Shown here piece by piece: positions 1-10,656 of a stretch of DNA of 18,800 bases (the first letter of the stretch is position 1; each line of letters begins with the position of its first letter). The notes beneath the pieces were generated by a model. That model searched no databases and was not told the origin of the DNA. It worked only from the letters and a program-made list of their open reading frames with translations. The translations under genes were made by a program, and so were the position numbers. The stretch spans positions 1 through 18,800 of the forward strand of contig CALDOH010000044.1 in the NCBI GenBank assembly GCA_937912185.1, given 5' to 3'. The stretch comes from an uncultured bacterium. GTDB lineage: Bacteria > Patescibacteriota > Patescibacteriia > UBA1558 > GWA2-36-10.

Positions 1-337
1 ACACTACCTTAGCCAATTTTGCCATGATTTCTTCCAATTTATCTTCTTCTGACTCTTTTAGGTCCTCAGTAATCATATTTTCCAACTCATTTTCTTCTTC
101 CTTCATCAGATTTTTCCAGGCGACCTTATCACCCTTCTTTATAATTTCCTTTTTTTCCTCAAAACTTACCAACAATTTTTCCATTAATTCCTGATCATCT
201 CCGAATGAAGTTCCTGTTTGTATCTCAAACTTTCTAAGGGTCATCATTATAACCTTAGAATATTTTGCCTTTTCTGTCTTAGATAAGTCAGATTTATAAA
301 TCAATGTCAGTACTTCTTCAACAATTTTATTAACCAT
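1..337 (-). CDS. Hypothetical protein, C-terminus cut by window edge
   Basis: An open frame begins with ATG at 337 and reads without a stop to the window edge, giving about 112 residues starting MVNKIVEEVLTLIYKSD. The visible part is very rich in Glu and Lys and looks wholly helical. I see no membrane segment, signal peptide or recognisable domain. It lies 29 bases behind the stop of the 394-aa gene on the same strand and is probably the third gene of that operon. No Shine-Dalgarno sequence precedes the ATG, as for most AT-rich genes here. I do not recognise the family. Confidence 0.7.
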   Translation of the reverse strand, partial: MVNKIVEEVLTLIYKSDLSKTEKAKYSKVIMMTLRKFEIQTGTSFGDDQELMEKLLVSFEEKKEIIKKGDKVAWKNLMKEEENELENMITEDLKESEEDKLEEIMAKLAKVV

Positions 338-3148: not shown

Positions 3149-3988
3149 ATGGAAAATAATCTAAAAATTGGTTTTATTGGCCAAGGCTGGATAGGTAAAA
3201 ACTATGCCGATGATTTTGAAAACAGGGGCCATGACATCATCAGATACGACCTAGACACTTACCCTGACAATAAAGATAAAATCAAGGACTGCGATATTGT
3301 TTTAATCGCTGTACCCACACCAACTACACCAGAAGGCTTTGATCATAGTATTGTCGATGAAGTATTAAATCTAGTTGGCAAGCACAAAATAGCCGTTATC
3401 AAATCAACCGTCCAAGTAGGCACCACCAAAGCCTTGCAAGAAAAACATCCAAATATTTTTGTTATGCACTCTCCTGAATTTTTGACTGAAAAGACTGCTG
3501 CTCAAGATGCCCAAAATCCACATAGAAATATTTTGGGTATTACCAATATAGATGATAAAGAGCTTTACCAAAAAGCCGAAACAGTTTTATCTGTTCTGGC
3601 TAAAGCACCCTACAATAAAATAGTCCAAGTCGAAAATGCCGAGATGATAAAGTATGGTGGCAATTGTTGGTTTTATGTAAAAGTTGTATTTATGAATATA
3701 CTTTATGACTTGGTAGAAAAAAACGGTCTAGACTATGAAGTCATCAAAGAATGCATGGCTCACGACCTAAGGATTGGACCAACCCATCTAGACGTTGTCC
3801 ATCAAGGTGGTCGCGGAGCTGGCGGTCATTGTTTTATCAAAGACTTTGAAGCTTTTATCAATATGCTAGAAGCAAAAAATCTAAGTGAACAAAAAAAAGT
3901 CTGCGAAGAAATACGAGACATCAATCTAAAATATCTCCGAGACTCTGGAAAAAATCCAGACCTAGTTCGAGGAGTTTACGGAAAATAA
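3149..3988 (+). CDS. UDP-glucose/GDP-mannose dehydrogenase family, lacking C-terminal domain
   Basis: The 279-aa protein has the N-terminal NAD-binding Rossmann domain (GFIGQGWIG at 8-16, VPTPTT at 55-60) and the central dimerisation/catalytic domain. That domain carries Lys168, Asn172 and Lys178 in a KxxxNxxxxxK pattern, and Cys228 in GGHCFIKD, matching the catalytic Cys of the family's GGSCFPKD-type motif. Family enzymes oxidise a nucleotide sugar twice to the uronic acid for capsule or glycan synthesis and are usually about 420-450 aa. The C-terminal nucleotide-sugar-binding domain (about 130 residues) is absent: the frame ends cleanly at 3988 before a terminator. It may act on another substrate or with a partner. 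A standalone gene without SD. Confidence 0.85.
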   Translation: MENNLKIGFIGQGWIGKNYADDFENRGHDIIRYDLDTYPDNKDKIKDCDIVLIAVPTPTTPEGFDHSIVDEVLNLVGKHKIAVIKSTVQVGTTKALQEKHPNIFVMHSPEFLTEKTAAQDAQNPHRNILGITNIDDKELYQKAETVLSVLAKAPYNKIVQVENAEMIKYGGNCWFYVKVVFMNILYDLVEKNGLDYEVIKECMAHDLRIGPTHLDVVHQGGRGAGGHCFIKDFEAFINMLEAKNLSEQKKVCEEIRDINLKYLRDSGKNPDLVRGVYGK

Positions 3989-4937: not shown

Positions 4938-7514
4938 TTAGGCAGCTATTTCATCAGCTTCTTCAAAATTCATTGAAAGTAACTTAGAAACACTGTCGTC
5001 TCCCATAGTCACGCCATAGATAATTCTAGCCTGGTGCATAGTAGCACGATTGTGCGTAATACCGATAAATTGAGTTCTATCGGACAATTCTTCCAATATC
5101 TCCACAAAGCGAATAGAGTTGGCCTCATCTAAAGCCGCATCTACTTCATCTAGCACCACAAAAGGAGCTGGGTTGTTGGCGATAATAGCGCAGACCAGAG
5201 CAATAGAAGTCAGCGCTTTCTCACCACCAGAGAGCATATTGATACTAGTTACTCTTTTGCCTGGAGGCACAGCCTTAATCTCAATGCCGTATTGTTTTTT
5301 GATCTTTACGTCCTGTTCATCATCCTCATCATCCTCATCACCTTCTTCATCACTACCAACATTAGCACTTATTTCTTTTATTTCTTTAATGTCCAAAATA
5401 AGTTCTGACTTACCACCATTAAACAATTTCTTAAAATATTTATCAAAAAGCTTATTGATGTTTTTGAAGGATTGATCAAATTGACTAGAGATTGTTTCTT
5501 CTAAGTCTTTGATGATTTTTTCTAGCTGAGAGATTGCATGCTCAAGATCACTAGTTTGCTCTGCCAAGAAATCGTGACGCTCTTTGACTTCTTTGTATTC
5601 TTCTAAAACCGCTTCATCAATACCCCCAATAATACTAAGTTGGTTTTTTAGATTAACAATTTTTTCTTTAACCGAAGAGGTGTTAATCTCGTCTACTTCT
5701 TTAAGTTCTAATTTGGGAAACTCTTCAGCAATTTCTTTTTGTAATTCCTCTTGTCTTGTTTCCAAACGAGCCAAATCGACTTTAACATCGTTGAGCTGAT
5801 TATTTTTTATATTAAATTCAGCCTGGATATGTCGAAAAGCTTTTTGGGCTTCGACCAAAGATTGTTTTTTCTCTTCCTCGGCTTGATTAAAGGCCCTAAC
5901 GTCTTCTTCAATAGTCTGAATGCTTTTTTCTTTTATCTCAATTTCTTTATGGAGCTGATCAAGCTTATCTTTTTGTTCACCAGCATCAACCTGACCTTCG
6001 TTGTTCTTTTTTTCAGACTCCAGTTTACTAAGCTCAACCTGACCTTTTCTTATATCGGTCTCAATACTGCCAAGTTCATTTTTTAAAACCGCTACCCTGG
6101 TTCTAGCCTCACTTATTTCTGAAACTAGATTGTCTTTGGTGCTAAGCAATTTATTAAAGTCTTCTTGCCAGTGGTTATCCTTTTTCTTTTCTGGACTGGC
6201 TATTTTTTTCTTTAAATTAGCAATTTCCTCAGTAATTTCAGTACAAATCTGACGAAGACTAGCGATCGTTTCTAGGCTATCTAATTGGTCTAAACTATTT
6301 TTGAAGTCTTCTTGTCTATTAAATATTCTTTCCAAATCAATTGCTAGATCATCTATTGAAACATCCCCATTTCCGTTCAAAAGCTTTTCCTCGAGACTAC
6401 TAAAATCTGCTAAGACACCTTCGCGTCTTTTTTCCAAAGCGTCTAAATCATCCTGAGATGACTTGAGCTGATTTTGTTTTTCCTTAAACTCCACTTCGCT
6501 TTCAGCAATTGCTTCTTTGATATTGGTAATCTGTTTTTTGAGCCAAACCAAATCACTACGACCACTAGCGGCCAACTTGAGATCAGCCTGACCTTCTAGA
6601 ATAGTTTTTTCTTTAAGTAGATTATTGAGTTCACCTTGCTTTTGACTTAATTTTTCTTGCAACAATTCGAAATTTTCTTGACGAGAAGAAGATCTTTCTT
6701 CTTTTTCTAATTCAGTCTGTAATTCGATCAATTTTTGGTTGTGATCTGATACCTCTGCCTGTAACACATCGTGTTGTTTTCTGACAGAAGACAAATTTTT
6801 ATTTGCACTATTAGTCAAAAAACTATAATAGCTAGTTTGTAATTCAAATAACTCTGTTTGTATTTTTTCTCGCTTCTCGAGCTTACCAACCTGCCGAGTC
6901 AAACTACGAAGACGTGGTGATAGCTCGGCTAAAATCTGATTGGTCTGCTCTAAATTATTTTTAGCGTTAGTTAATTTATTGACTGACTGATTTTTTTTGA
7001 TCTGAAATTGTCTAACACCAGTAGCTTCGTCAAAAAATTCTTTACGCTCAGCAGAAGAAGATGTAAGGATGGTGTCAATCATGCCCTGACCAATAACACT
7101 GTAGGTTTTCTGACCAAAGTTTGCCTTAGCTAAAAGAATCTGCACATCAAACAAACGAACCTTATTGTTGTTGATTAAATATTCACTTTCACCGTTACGA
7201 TCAATTTTACGAGTAACTATAATCTGCTCAAAATCAACCTCTGCTTGTTTATCTTCGTTGTTGAGATAAAGGTCGACTTGAGCAAAACCGAGGCGGCTTT
7301 TTTTGTCAGAACCAGAAAAAATAACATCCTCAGCCTTCTTACCTCGAAGTGTTTTGACGCTTTGTTCACCCAAAACCCAACGAACAGCATCAGCAATATT
7401 AGACTTACCAGAACCATTTGGCCCAACGATAGCTGTCAGCTGACGATTAAAAACCAACTCCGCTGGGTTGGCAAATGATTTAAAGCCTTGAATCTCTAAT
7501 TTTTCTAGATACAT
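4938..7514 (-). CDS. smc: SMC-family ATPase, short form without visible hinge
   Basis: The 858-aa protein begins [14 protein letters not shown], with Walker [10 protein letters not shown] at 31-39. The C-terminal head has the ABC signature LSGGEKA near 760 and Walker [14 protein letters not shown] near 785, with an acidic insert ([12 protein letters not shown]) shortly before. Between the heads lie two long coiled-coil regions. SMC proteins dimerise at a globular hinge, close ATP-driven rings and organise the chromosome; bacterial ones are about 1150-1200 aa. Here I see no hinge sequence between the arms, only short breaks such as [12 protein letters not shown] (about 380-390) and [11 protein letters not shown] (about 445). 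Heads are intact, so it should still bind and hydrolyse ATP, but dimerisation must differ. A shortened SMC-like or RecN-like role is possible. Confidence 0.88.
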
Positions 7515-7782: not shown

Positions 7783-8445
7783 ATGAAGACCCTGAAACTG
7801 ATCGCCGTGTTGATCGCCATCCTCGTTCCCGTGTTCGCGCAGGCCCAGGAATACCTGAGCAGCGAGATCTACCCGCAGGGCCCCCTGTTCATCGCCGCCG
7901 GCTTCAGCCAGGACAACGGCCTGAAGGTCGACACCTGGACCAACGTCGGTTCCGAGATCGGCACCACTGTCGGTGCGAACTTCAGCAGCCCGCTGGACCA
8001 CATCGATTACCTCAAGCTCGGCTTTGGTCCGAGCATCATGACCGTCTGCAACGAGACCTGGATCGCCGCCGAAGAGCGCCTGCTCTCCAACGAGACCCAG
8101 GACATCGGTTACCTGAACTTCGACATCGGCTTCGGCCTCACCGTCGGATCGACCAAGATCAACAGCTACACCATGTGGCAGAATTCGCAGCACGACAGCA
8201 TCGACGACTTCTGGTTCTCCCGGAACACCGTCGCCTTCGGCGACAGCCCCATCGGCATCTTCGGCCACATGAAGAAGGCCGGCGACAATCCGCTGGAGCC
8301 CTTCTGGGGCGCCTACTACAACCTGGGCAGCTTCGGCCCCGTCGCTTCCAGTCAACTGGTACTGACCTTCAACCTGGCTCCCCAGGACAAGTCCGACGGC
8401 AGCGCCGCCGACAAGATCTGGACTGCCTGGATCCTCAACTTCTAG
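7783..8445 (+). CDS. GC-rich secreted hypothetical protein, 220 aa
   Basis: Residues 1-22 are a clear Sec signal peptide: MKTLKL, a hydrophobic core, then AQA as the likely cleavage site before QEY. The mature ~198 residues alternate hydrophobic and polar with many Gly, Asn and aromatics (GFSQDNGLKVDTWTNVG, YLNFDIGFGLTVG, FWGAYYNLGSFGP) and end in WILNF. This beta-rich pattern recalls small outer-membrane-barrel-like proteins, but no family is recognised. GC content and codons are far above neighbouring genes. GGAGG lies nine bases before the ATG. The gene has its own promoter and strong terminator, so it is an autonomous unit and a candidate for recent transfer, though the same traits recur in other accessory genes here. 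Confidence 0.85.
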   Translation: MKTLKLIAVLIAILVPVFAQAQEYLSSEIYPQGPLFIAAGFSQDNGLKVDTWTNVGSEIGTTVGANFSSPLDHIDYLKLGFGPSIMTVCNETWIAAEERLLSNETQDIGYLNFDIGFGLTVGSTKINSYTMWQNSQHDSIDDFWFSRNTVAFGDSPIGIFGHMKKAGDNPLEPFWGAYYNLGSFGPVASSQLVLTFNLAPQDKSDGSAADKIWTAWILNF

Positions 8446-8454
8446 GACAACATC

Positions 8455-8471
8455 TAGGCCGCACCGGCCTA
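8455..8471 (+). other. Hairpin behind the secreted-protein gene
   Basis: TAGGCC and GGCCTA form a 6-bp stem with a 5-base loop just behind the stop. It lacks its own T run and directly precedes the real terminator. Confidence 0.5.
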
Positions 8472-8472
8472 T

Positions 8473-8507
8473 GGCCCGCTGGATATTCCGGCGGGCCGCT
8501 TTTTTTT
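8473..8507 (+). terminator. Strong intrinsic terminator
   Basis: A 10-bp stem (8473-8482 with 8488-8497, one wobble) with loop ATATT is followed by GC and eight T. It ends the secreted-protein transcript and meets the oppositely oriented small-RNA terminator within a few bases. Confidence 0.9.
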
Positions 8508-8541
8508 GGACAAAGAAAAAAAGACACCGGAGTGTCTCGAG
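8508..8541. repeat. 34-base terminator repeat, copy 1
   Basis: Matches 8712-8745 at 32 of 34 positions (differences at positions 4 and 14). It contains the terminator hairpin and the following CTCGAG of small RNA 1. Confidence 0.85.
8512..8537 (-). terminator. Terminator of small RNA 1
   Basis: On the minus strand AGACAC (8537-8532) pairs with GTGTCT (8527-8522) around TCCG, followed by a T-rich tract broken by one C. Confidence 0.85.
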
Positions 8542-8664
8542 GGGGCAACAGCATCAAATGCTAACGGTAGTGGATCGGTGGCGTTAGGCGCTACCCATAA
8601 GAGAACGGTGATGAGGGGGTAGTTTTGGTGGTGTTGCTGGAAAGGTCGAATCGAATTGATTGAT
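8512..8664 (-). ncRNA. Small RNA 1 (C-rich)
   Basis: A promoter (8671-8699) and a terminator (8512-8537) define a minus-strand transcript of about 153 nt, starting ATCAATCAATTCG. The body is C-rich and G-poor in its first half, with CACCACC and CUACCCCCUCAUCACC (UACCCCC at 8621-8615). Short stems are possible (GCAACA with UGUUGC; AGCAU with AUGCU). The only ATG in the body opens a 4-codon frame, so it is unlikely to be an mRNA. UACCCCC is complementary to GGGGGUA in the ribosome-binding region of the FabH-like gene (18216). The same terminator hairpin is found in small RNA 2. I infer a regulatory RNA; the target is a guess. Confidence 0.75.
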
Positions 8665-8670
8665 GAATAT

Positions 8671-8699
8671 ATATTAGCAAAAAAATAATTGCCCGTCAA
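8671..8699 (-). promoter_or_regulatory. Promoter of small RNA 1, TTGACG / 17 bp / TAATAT
   Basis: TTGACG (8699-8694), exactly 17 bases, TAATAT (8676-8671), then six bases before the conserved ATCAA. Confidence 0.85.
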
Positions 8700-8711
8700 T
8701 ACCATAACTGT

Positions 8712-8745
8712 GGATAAAGAAAAAGAGACACCGGAGTGTCTCGAG
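8712..8745. repeat. 34-base terminator repeat, copy 2
   Basis: 32 of 34 bases match 8508-8541; it contains the terminator of small RNA 2. The duplication covers the terminators, while the RNA bodies upstream differ. Confidence 0.85.
8716..8742 (-). terminator. Terminator of small RNA 2
   Basis: GAGACAC (8742-8736) pairs with GTGTCTC (8731-8725) around TCCG, followed by TTTTTCTTT. Confidence 0.9.
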
Positions 8746-8850
8746 CTGAGGCAGAATCATCAAATATAGATGTAGAAAGGAGGGAGGGGCGAGGTTGTCA
8801 TGTTATATGAGATGATTCTGTTGGGAAAGAGCAAAAGCGTTGCTTTTGAT
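8716..8850 (-). ncRNA. Small RNA 2, displays a 16S-tail-like anti-SD loop
   Basis: The transcript runs about 135 nt from a start near 8850 (ATCAAAAG) to the terminator. A 5' hairpin (CAAAAGC, loop AAC, GCTTTTG) comes first. Then a perfect 10-bp stem, CAGAATCATC (8820-8811) with GATGATTCTG (8761-8752), closes a 49-nt loop. Within the loop, C-rich sequence runs into CCUCCCUCCUUUCU; CCUCCUUUCU (8783-8774) matches the usual bacterial 16S rRNA 3' tail that pairs with SD sequences. The RNA could bind SDs of target mRNAs or mimic the 16S tail. No credible ORF lies on this strand. The structure, not just the composition, argues that the loop is meant to be exposed. Confidence 0.8.
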
Positions 8851-8856
8851 GCTTTT

Positions 8857-8885
8857 ATAATATCACTAAAAACAAAGTTAGTCAA
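8857..8885 (-). promoter_or_regulatory. Promoter of small RNA 2, TTGACT / 17 bp / TATTAT
   Basis: TTGACT (8885-8880), exactly 17 bases, TATTAT (8862-8857), then six bases before ATCAA. Confidence 0.88.
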
Positions 8886-8904
8886 ATGGAGTCAAAAATG
8901 AAGA

Positions 8905-8930
8905 TAAAAAAAATCCTACCTAGGTAGGAT
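8905..8930 (-). terminator. Terminator of small RNA 3
   Basis: The palindrome ATCCTAC-CTAG-GTAGGAT (8930-8913) is followed by eight T on the minus strand. It probably also ends the rpmF-nusB-rnc transcript. Confidence 0.9.
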
Positions 8931-9059
8931 GCACGCGGAGGTGGACCAGGACGGAACGGTTGGGGTGAAGGAATGGTTCAGGTGGTTCGGACAGCGCCGG
9001 GCGGAGGAGGTCTTGGTTTGGTGCGTGTGTTGTAGAAGCTGAAGGTGCGTTTACTTGAT
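8905..9059 (-). ncRNA. Small RNA 3, strongly C-rich
   Basis: The promoter at 9066-9094 and terminator at 8905-8930 define about 155 nt starting ATCAAGTAAACGCACC. The body is C-rich and G-poor and looks little structured apart from CACGC with GCGTG and GACC with GGTC pairings. It holds two anti-SD-like segments, CCUCCUCC (9010-9003) and CACCUCC (8943-8937), plus AUUCCUUC. These are complementary over about seven bases to the SD of the 56-aa membrane-protein gene (GGAGGAG), to GGAGGUG in the 69-aa gene's leader and to GAAGGAA before the 98-aa gene. It begins directly behind rnc, which has no terminator of its own, so the RNA may also arise from the rnc 3' end. Confidence 0.78.
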
Positions 9060-9065
9060 GAATCT

Positions 9066-9094
9066 ATAATATCACCGATAAAAACACCTGTCAA
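9066..9094 (-). promoter_or_regulatory. Promoter of small RNA 3, TTGACA / 17 bp / TATTAT
   Basis: TTGACA (9094-9089), 17 bases, TATTAT (9071-9066), six bases, ATCAA. The -35 box lies four bases behind the rnc stop codon. Confidence 0.9.
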
Positions 9095-9098
9095 TATC

Positions 9099-9791
9099 TT
9101 ACCATTTTTTCATTATCAAGGCGCTTTCAGCTGCTTTTGTCTGCGCTTCTTGTTTACTATACCCTTCGCCTTTAGCAATTAAATCTTTTTCTAAATAAAC
9201 GCCTACTACAAACTTTTTATTGTGGTCAGGTCCAGACTCAGATAAAACTTTATAACGAGGCGTAACTCCAGAAAGCTCCTGTGCTTTTTCCTGAAAATTG
9301 CTTTTAGCGTCTATATAGGTACCATCTTTTATTATTTTATCAAGATGACTCACTAGGTTCTTTTCTATAAATTTCTGCGCAGCCTCATAACCCTTGTCTA
9401 AGTAGATAGCGCCGGTAACCGCCTCAAAAGCATTGGCTAAAATATACTGCCGTGCTTTTTTATTCTTATCTTTAGACTCACCATGAGACAAATACAAGAA
9501 TTCATAAATACCTAGGTCTTCAGCAATAGAAGCCAACTGTTCACCGTTGACCAAAGAAGAGCGCCAGTTAGTCAAAACGCCTTCGGCTTCACTATAATTT
9601 TTATACAAATAATCAGTCACGATCAACTCCAAAACTGCATCCCCTAAAAACTCTAGACGTTCATTGTGGTCTAGAGGAAAATCTTTGTGCTCATTGAGAT
9701 ATGATCTATGGACCAGAGAGCTCTTAAGTATGTCTATTTTTTTAAACTTAACACCAATTATTTTCTCTAGTGTGCTGAGATTATTTTTCAT
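9099..9791 (-). CDS. rnc: Ribonuclease III
   Basis: The 230-aa protein carries the RNase III signature HNERLEFLGDAVLELI at about 42-57, with the metal-binding Glu and Asp, and a C-terminal double-stranded RNA-binding domain at about 160-230 (NFQEKAQEL at its start, then KAAESALIMKKW). It cleaves double-stranded RNA in rRNA precursors and in sRNA-mRNA duplexes. Length is normal. Its ATG overlaps the end of the nusB-nudix gene by 11 bases, so the two are coupled. No terminator separates its stop from the promoter of small RNA 3, so its mRNA should run to the terminator at 8905. This links rnc physically to the small-RNA cluster. Confidence 0.95.
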   Translation of the reverse strand: MKNNLSTLEKIIGVKFKKIDILKSSLVHRSYLNEHKDFPLDHNERLEFLGDAVLELIVTDYLYKNYSEAEGVLTNWRSSLVNGEQLASIAEDLGIYEFLYLSHGESKDKNKKARQYILANAFEAVTGAIYLDKGYEAAQKFIEKNLVSHLDKIIKDGTYIDAKSNFQEKAQELSGVTPRYKVLSESGPDHNKKFVVGVYLEKDLIAKGEGYSKQEAQTKAAESALIMKKW

Positions 9792-10656
9792 TTTTCTGCA
9801 GAGCTAATTTTTCTAATCCTTTTTTAAAAATATCTTTAGCGTTGTCATAATCCAACCTATCAATCGCTTCGTGTAGAGAAAACCATTGAACATCTTGCAA
9901 TTCACTAACGTCTGGCACGGTCAATTTCTGGTCTTTGGCTTCAACTAAAAAATATTTGATCAACTTGCGATATGGTTTTTCGCCTGGCTTATGTACCTTT
10001 ACTTCAGTTTCACCAAGATAACCATGCTCTGTCAATTTCTTGAGTCCGGTTTCCTCGCTCAACTCACGTAAAGCGGCAACCTCAAGTTTTTCATTACCAT
10101 CAACCTTACCTTTAGGAAAAGTCCACTTATCGTAAGCATCTTTTATTAAAACAAAGTAGTACCCATCGTCAGCTTGGCGATAAATTACTCCACCAGCAGA
10201 TACTTCTTTAATACCCTGACTGGCTAGGGTCTGTTTTTCACCCTTCTTCATCATCTCTTTATAAATACTGCCCAGGACACCATTAACAAACTTGCCACTA
10301 GAGTCACCACCAAAAGCCTTGGCTAGCTCAATTGCTTCATTGATAGCAACTTTAGGAGGAATTTCTTCAGACATCTTAAGCTCGTAAATACCCATGCGCA
10401 GAACATTGCGATCGGTCATGGTAATTTGGTCGAGCGGCCACTCTGGAGCAAACTTAATAATCATTTGATCAATTTTTTTCTGATTTTTACTCACCCCTTC
10501 GGCCAAAGCCAAAGAAAATCCCTGATCATCAAAGTCAGGGGCAAATTCCTTGTGGTTATGCTCAACAATTTTTACAATATCTTTCTTGCCTTTGTTAAAA
10601 TCATGCTCATAGAGAGCCTGTAAAACCAATGTTCGAGCTAAATGTCTATTAGCCAT
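9781..10656 (-). CDS. nusB: NusB-Nudix hydrolase fusion
   Basis: Residues 1-137 are NusB (RHLARTLVLQALYEHDF at the start; KVAINEAIELAKAFG and KFVNGVLGS near the end), the antitermination factor that binds boxA RNA with S10. Residues 150-285 form a Nudix domain; the Nudix box occupies 183-205 with G183, E189 and the core REL-SEETGL, all required positions present. Nudix enzymes hydrolyse nucleoside diphosphates linked to another moiety; the start SAGGVIYR and PKGK resemble the MutT/Ap4A hydrolase group. The reading frame is continuous over both domains, with a linker of about 12 residues, so this is a true fusion. It follows rpmF (7 bases apart) and overlaps rnc. Confidence 0.93.
   Translation of the reverse strand: MANRHLARTLVLQALYEHDFNKGKKDIVKIVEHNHKEFAPDFDDQGFSLALAEGVSKNQKKIDQMIIKFAPEWPLDQITMTDRNVLRMGIYELKMSEEIPPKVAINEAIELAKAFGGDSSGKFVNGVLGSIYKEMMKKGEKQTLASQGIKEVSAGGVIYRQADDGYYFVLIKDAYDKWTFPKGKVDGNEKLEVAALRELSEETGLKKLTEHGYLGETEVKVHKPGEKPYRKLIKYFLVEAKDQKLTVPDVSELQDVQWFSLHEAIDRLDYDNAKDIFKKGLEKLALQKNEK

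Follow-up and report, generated by a model that had tools for sequence, protein, structure and literature searches.

What is encoded in the gap behind the ribonuclease III gene of this CPR bacterium, where three promoters and three terminators follow one another on the minus strand? The DNA analyzed here, a single contig of 18,800 nucleotides hereafter called the window, belongs to an 866-kb draft genome (G000) of 163 contigs and 89% completeness. The original prediction for this locus had proposed a family of small regulatory RNAs (sRNAs), perhaps targeting Shine-Dalgarno (SD) sequences. Our best reading, held with moderate confidence, is that the gap carries three adjacent candidate genes for trans-acting base-pairing sRNAs, each with its own promoter and terminator.

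Genomic setting of the locus

The predicted CPR origin agrees with the gene set of the window (rnc, NusB-NUDIX, SMC and VanW) and with the Parcubacteria names among the nearest named relatives. The ribonuclease III gene rnc (9099..9791, minus strand) lies directly upstream of unit 1, and the gap between it and the smc-like gene (4938..7514, minus strand) is a syntenic RNA locus. Two further genes of the window may be mentioned: at 9781-10656 (minus strand) a NUDIX domain is fused to NusB, and the KH-domain protein at 2143-2466 resembles KhpA, with NCBIfam matches below the cut-off.

Past unit 3, a converging gene (7783-8445, plus strand) encodes an orphan protein that looks secreted; smc comes next. 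The orphan gene is GC-rich in an AT-rich genome and has a GGAGG leader. Its product matches no Pfam family and has one match in the protein collection, with 100% identity over the full length. Reading the loci by eye, we found relatives of this gene at the equivalent place in G001 and G002, which are the two other genomes of the same genus, and in G012. As smc lies downstream on the same strand, the units could in principle form a leader or attenuator of that gene. This is extremely improbable, since the terminator of unit 3 lies about 1 kb before smc and the converging gene stands between them.

Three units with related promoters and starts

The unit 1 promoter (TTGACA-17-TATTAT, 9066..9094, read 9094-9066) begins 4 nt past the rnc stop codon, while those of unit 2 (TTGACT-17-TATTAT, 8857..8885, read 8885-8857) and unit 3 (TTGACG-17-TAATAT, 8671..8699, read 8699-8671) are intergenic; all three are on the minus strand. 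Six bases past each −10 box stands ATCAA (9059-9055, 8850-8846 and 8664-8660), and each unit ends in an intrinsic terminator, with stems at 8930-8913, 8742-8725 and 8538-8521. Every element of the predicted succession of promoter, ATCAA, C-rich body and terminator was thus recovered for all three units; counted from ATCAA through the terminator stem, units 1 to 3 measure 147, 126 and 144 nt (originally given as about 135-155 nt).

A genome-wide search for units of promoter plus ATCAA gave three matches, all at this locus, with the pattern TTGACN-17-TANTAT-6-ATCAA as well as with the looser TTGACN-17-TANNAT-5..7-ATCA; the reversed control of the former and the control of the latter gave none. 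The similarity extends beyond the boxes. Over the spacer and 11 downstream positions, 28 in all, pairs of units share 17, 18 and 16 bases, compared with a mean of 8.2 and a maximum of 16, reached by 2 pairs only, among 378 pairs from 28 other TTGAC-17 promoters in a 123-kb sample of the source genome. The bodies are C-rich and G-poor: for the first 130 nt of units 1, 2 and 3, C-minus-G amounts to 0.29, 0.20 and 0.23, values that 0.1, 1.0 and 0.4% of the window's minus-strand positions reach, with the locus counted in. Composition and start are shared, as had been claimed.

Unit 2 has a conserved helix around a variable, G-poor loop

The unit 2 RNA (8718..8850, minus strand) is predicted to form a 7-bp hairpin (8848-8832), a 10-bp long-range closing helix (8820-8811/8761-8752) and the terminator stem at 8742-8725. 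The loop enclosed by the helix (8810-8762) contains 2 G in 49 nt. Unit 2 recurs in all three genomes of the genus. In G001 it is accompanied by unit 1, the two being separated by another RNA of ~310 nt, and G002 has unit 2 alone. Between genome pairs, the 5′ part including the left arm is identical at 39-44 of 46 positions and the right arm at 11 of 11, but the loop at just 18-26 of 51; the yardstick, rnc third positions of the same pairs, is 50-54% identity. The loop is divergent yet keeps 2 G per 49-51 nt in each of the three genomes. The fold is more stable than shuffled sequences in all three (z −4.5 to −5.8), and by eye the terminator in G001 has a compensated change from an A-U to a G-C pair. 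A model of unit 2 (R1), searched against 36 genomes of the order, matches 3, which belong to the same genus and are its training genomes, and a search of viral contigs with the unit 2 pattern gave no match.

Units 2 and 3 as diverged partial duplicates

The unit 3 RNA (8513..8664, minus strand) has an interrupted closing helix that starts with GCAACA (8637-8632) pairing with TGTTGC (8550-8545), followed by the terminator stem at 8538-8521. In the fold read by eye this helix occupies the place of the unit 2 helix, with two pairs compensated and two broken. Unit 3 scores z −2.8 against shuffles, between units 1 and 2, and its closing helix lies within the range of shuffled sequences, 4 of 30 of which matched it. 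We saw no homologue of unit 3.

Run over the window with filters off, R1 did not find unit 3; the evidence that units 2 and 3 are kin therefore comes from promoter, terminator and arm. The 35-nt terminator blocks of unit 2 (8711..8745) and unit 3 (8507..8541), both on the minus strand, are 94% identical, and a 16-nt stretch of the right arm is common to both with 81% identity. Together with the promoter blocks, these terminator blocks and this one arm stretch make up the direct repeats of the locus. Judged by these elements, units 2 and 3 are diverged, partial duplicates in tandem. All three units can be read as siblings by promoter and start, units 2 and 3 also by terminator and arm; at the level of sequence, the locus holds several sibling copies with their own promoters and terminators.

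Could the units encode small peptides instead? Unit 2 contains an open frame (LLFPNRII...) that measures 24, 25 and 26 codons in the three homologues, the length difference being a multiple of three, and a 78-codon ORF (8469-8705) overlaps unit 3. However, the start codon of the unit 2 frame varies (TTG, TTG, ATG) with no SD before it, and the peptide is conserved only in the part that doubles as a helix arm. The 78-codon ORF begins upstream of the unit 3 promoter and crosses the unit 3 terminator, and units 1 and 3 have no listed internal sense frame of at least 15 codons. Small-peptide genes are accordingly very improbable, and the bodies have no credible ORF, as originally stated: no frame shows a conserved start and SD across homologues. 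Base-pairing sRNAs remain the preferred reading.

Unit 1 resembles a 3′-UTR sRNA of rnc

The unit 1 RNA (8905..9059, minus strand) has a C-rich body without a strong fold and a homologue in G001; it is thus present in two of the three genomes of the genus (G000 and G001). It contains two ACCTCC sites (9011-9006 and 8942-8937, minus strand) and 5-bp arms at 9027-9023/8936-8932 (minus strand). Its fold is no better than that of shuffled sequences (z −0.1 for the whole, +1.65 for the body), and analysis of the two copies, here and in G001, gave z +0.4 and −1.4.

Our scan found no terminator between rnc and unit 1; the first one after rnc is that of unit 1 (8930). As no other was found, the unit 1 terminator probably also ends the rnc mRNA. 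Type I 3′-UTR sRNAs have their own promoter at the 3′ end of an mRNA and share its terminator. In its sequence features unit 1 has both, and it is probably a 3′-UTR-type sRNA of rnc. This design fits unit 1 only; units 2 and 3 are each headed by their own intergenic promoter.

A model of unit 1 (R3) matched both training loci and gave some match at E up to 1 in 14 of 21 genomes. The best match outside the training loci had E 0.0013, and none of the weak matches listed lies at the rnc gap. C-rich, G-poor first units with a promoter directly past rnc also occur in G007 and G012, related to unit 1 by position only.

The gap behind rnc holds RNA-like units in most of the family genomes read

The family set comprises 21 genomes including G000, and the gap was read in 19 of them; G006, with no rnc match, and G018, which ends inside rnc, were dropped. 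Over the 9087 nt of these gaps taken as non-coding, strict promoters number 24 in sense and 2 in antisense direction, or 2.6 versus 0.2 per kb; the background in the 123-kb sample of the source genome is 0.16 per kb and strand. Terminators are likewise distributed unevenly (28 sense, 8 antisense), some of them being rnc's own; the scan found none in the gaps of G004 and G015. Strict sense promoters occur in 15 of the 19 genomes and RNA-like units, read by eye, also in 15, with 14 genomes in common. Three of the promoters, namely the third in G007, the second in G015 and the one in G008, probably belong to an ORF. ATC[AG] stands at most 14 nt from the −10 box in 13 of the 24 promoters, a count made without a control.

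From 15 genomes we drew 24 units, with none from G008, G010, G013 and G014. Unit boundaries and gap extents were set by eye, some after helices had been seen, and the 24 units do not correspond one-to-one to the 24 promoters: for instance, the G017 unit and unit 2 of G001 have no strict promoter. In 17 of the 24 units, none of 30 shuffles equalled the best helix enclosing 40 nt or more, and in one more unit 1 of 30 did so. In the other six, units 1 and 3 of the source genome among them, this helix was ordinary (4 to 20 of 30 shuffles).

The motif UGAGUCGC is common to six of the 24 units (G001, G005, G007, G012, G016 and G017). In an unbiased ranking, TGAGTCGC was the top 8-mer, found in six units from five of nine genera (expected 0.04 genera), and no 8-mer reached five genera in any of 200 shuffled sets. 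ACACCTCC occurs in four of nine genera, which is borderline because some 8-mer reached four genera in 8 of 200 shuffled sets. The G001 locus (L024, ~2284-2633) combines a promoter with the RNA of ~310 nt, which has two closed domains, the second carrying UGAGUCGC and ACACCTCC.

MAFFT misaligned the UGAGUCGC domain when given seven sequences, so we chose four in which the motif aligned and left G003, G016 and G017 out of the covariation count. This four-sequence alignment gives a closing helix of 10 pairs with every lettered cell paired, and 6 of the pairs show compensatory changes; sliding the same alignment left 29-58% paired. This covariation indicates that the locus encodes real RNAs in the relatives. 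Searched with stricter filters against 91 genomes, a model of the domain (R2) matches just the four on which it was trained. G016 and G017, both assigned by eye, escape it, and G000 gives no match.

The evidence so far bears on a plainer alternative, namely that the units are untranslated tails with spare promoters, a functionless rnc 3′ UTR accompanied by duplicated terminators. Unit 1 does lie directly past rnc with no other terminator found, unit 3 has no homologue that we saw, and units are quickly gained and lost. But the promoter enrichment is restricted to one strand, the unit 2 arms are conserved above rnc third positions and the UGAGUCGC RNA of the relatives shows compensatory changes, which makes this explanation improbable. 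The rnc-smc gap turns over fast, and other family members hold other RNA units there.

Outside the family the evidence is thinner: 68 of 80 named rnc loci lack a strict promoter and 12 (including L046) have one. These loci were scanned to smc or to the next 90-codon ORF, a stretch that was often short, and all but L046 seem too distant to belong to the family. One of the 12, the Moranbacterium locus L052, has a TTGACA promoter 8 nt past the rnc stop and a terminator-like end (~3696-3935). L052 looks like another instance, and the locus may thus predate the family.

C-rich segments as candidate anti-SD seeds

CCTCC is over-represented in unit 1 (3 versus 0.85 expected) and unit 2 (2 versus 0.38 expected) of the source genome. 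It is absent from unit 3 and from both unit 2 homologues, and is not enriched in the unit 1 homologue (1 versus 1.26 expected). Over the 24 family units, ACCTCC occurs 9 times versus 2.2 expected, a count that none of 500 shuffles reached; this motif was first noticed on 14 chosen units and then tested on all 24. Units 2 and 3 of the source genome lack it.

Potential SD sites are few in this organism, whose anti-SD sequence we presume. SD-like 4-mers precede 13 of 85 genes in the source genome and are just as frequent (13 of 85) in control sequence lying farther upstream; SD-like 5-mers precede 8 genes versus 3 in the upstream control (85 each). Even with starts chosen to favor an SD, 30 of 113 genes have at least 4 SD bases. 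Two patterns for the 3′ end of 16S rRNA each gave no match in the 21 family genomes, where this stretch may be masked.

As a possible target we considered the secreted-protein gene, which has a good SD. In duplex rankings against 109 start regions, which were those of G000 in every ranking, it came 27th, 28th and 17th for units 1 to 3. With the RNAs of G001 and G002 it ranked 1 of 109 for unit 1 of G001, and 48 and 20 for unit 2. We rejected this candidate because the ranks are inconsistent across units and genomes.

Hfq (PF17209) was found in none of the 21 family genomes, most of which are drafts, and in 5 of 14 controls.

Overall, the proposed sRNA family stands as three predicted non-coding sRNA genes in a sibling cluster, marked by their promoters, the duplicated terminator, homologues of units 1 and 2 and helix arms. 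The SD targeting that was proposed with it is supported in part: CCTCC in units 1 and 2 and the family-wide enrichment of ACCTCC speak for it, whereas unit 3 and the unit 2 homologues lack the motif and SD sites are rare.

Comparison with known RNAs

Rfam searches of the window, this locus, the G001 locus and 18 family loci detected two tRNAs and otherwise gave matches that stayed below the family cut-offs. No sRNA family was at gathering score in the window, and with permissive filters the locus gave three other families at E 0.6-6.9 only. No family thus reached its cut-off for the three units, and this includes LhrC, which we take to be an Rfam family.

The closest parallel is found in Listeria. 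The LhrC1-5 sRNAs are multicopy and G-poor, with UCCC stretches in loops or single-stranded parts; through these C-rich stretches they pair with a G-rich sequence at the Shine-Dalgarno site, and UCCC is described as typical of those sRNAs in low-GC bacteria that prevent initiation of translation (PMC4132741). Our units resemble them in having several sibling copies, a low G content and C-rich segments. They differ in that the bodies of units 1 and 3 of the source genome contain no UCCC, the three bodies are strongly unlike each other, unit 2 has a long-range helix round a G-poor loop, and the host is a CPR bacterium with few SD sites. TIGR arrays, also present in CPR bacteria, are dual-repeat arrays that give 36-nt guide RNAs (PMC12045711). 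They share with our locus the tandem encoding of small RNAs in CPR genomes, whereas here there are three separate promoter-terminator genes.

The main rival to antisense action is binding of the RNAs to a protein or to the ribosome, as a decoy or scaffold, by way of conserved helices or loops. Helix and 5′ hairpin of unit 2 are conserved in sequence beyond what pairing alone requires, while the loop sequence is free, and UGAGUCGC, common to units of six relatives, lies inside a closed domain in four. As stand-alone RNAs with a closing helix, the units also resemble 6S RNA (RF00013). The 6S covariance model detected none in the 21 family genomes, mostly drafts (controls 5 of 14, 4 of them over the cut-off), so the units may have a 6S-like role. 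The design of 6S RNA includes a strong apical stem, which the unit 2 loop lacks, and the loops stay C-rich and G-poor, which suits pairing. We consider protein binding unlikely, and antisense action in trans likely; its SD part is uncertain.

No description of regulatory sRNAs of Patescibacteria was among the best literature matches listed, which were mainly open-access, and a recent paper on patescibacterial biology (PMC11665869) contains none of the six RNA terms looked for. Rfam and these matches agree with the original claim that such a cluster had not been described. Sibling sRNAs with C-rich seeds are a known kind; these RNAs and such a locus were not among the literature matches listed and may tentatively be taken as additions to it.

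Proposed mechanism and implications

If the units are base-pairing sRNAs, each would yield an RNA of ~125-155 nt, running from its own promoter to its intrinsic terminator. A helix, or plain scarcity of G, would hold a C-rich segment single-stranded, which is backed by conservation for unit 2 and which we infer for units 1 and 3. This segment would serve as an antisense seed acting in trans on G-rich mRNA sites, often near translation starts, and the pairing would work without Hfq.

A more far-reaching reading is speculative, and we give it a small chance. The rnc-smc gap might be a dedicated, fast-evolving RNA locus of this CPR family that goes on generating RNAs of a new architectural class, in which a long-range helix closes a G-poor loop or a UGAGUCGC domain is present, often with the anti-SD-like ACCUCC. 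Such RNAs could be the main Hfq-free post-transcriptional regulators where protein regulators are few, picking out the minority of mRNAs with a real SD. The syntenic spot past RNase III gives coordinates to examine in existing metatranscriptomes. It makes testable whether antisense RNAs regulate genes in bacteria with no detected Hfq and weak Shine-Dalgarno use.
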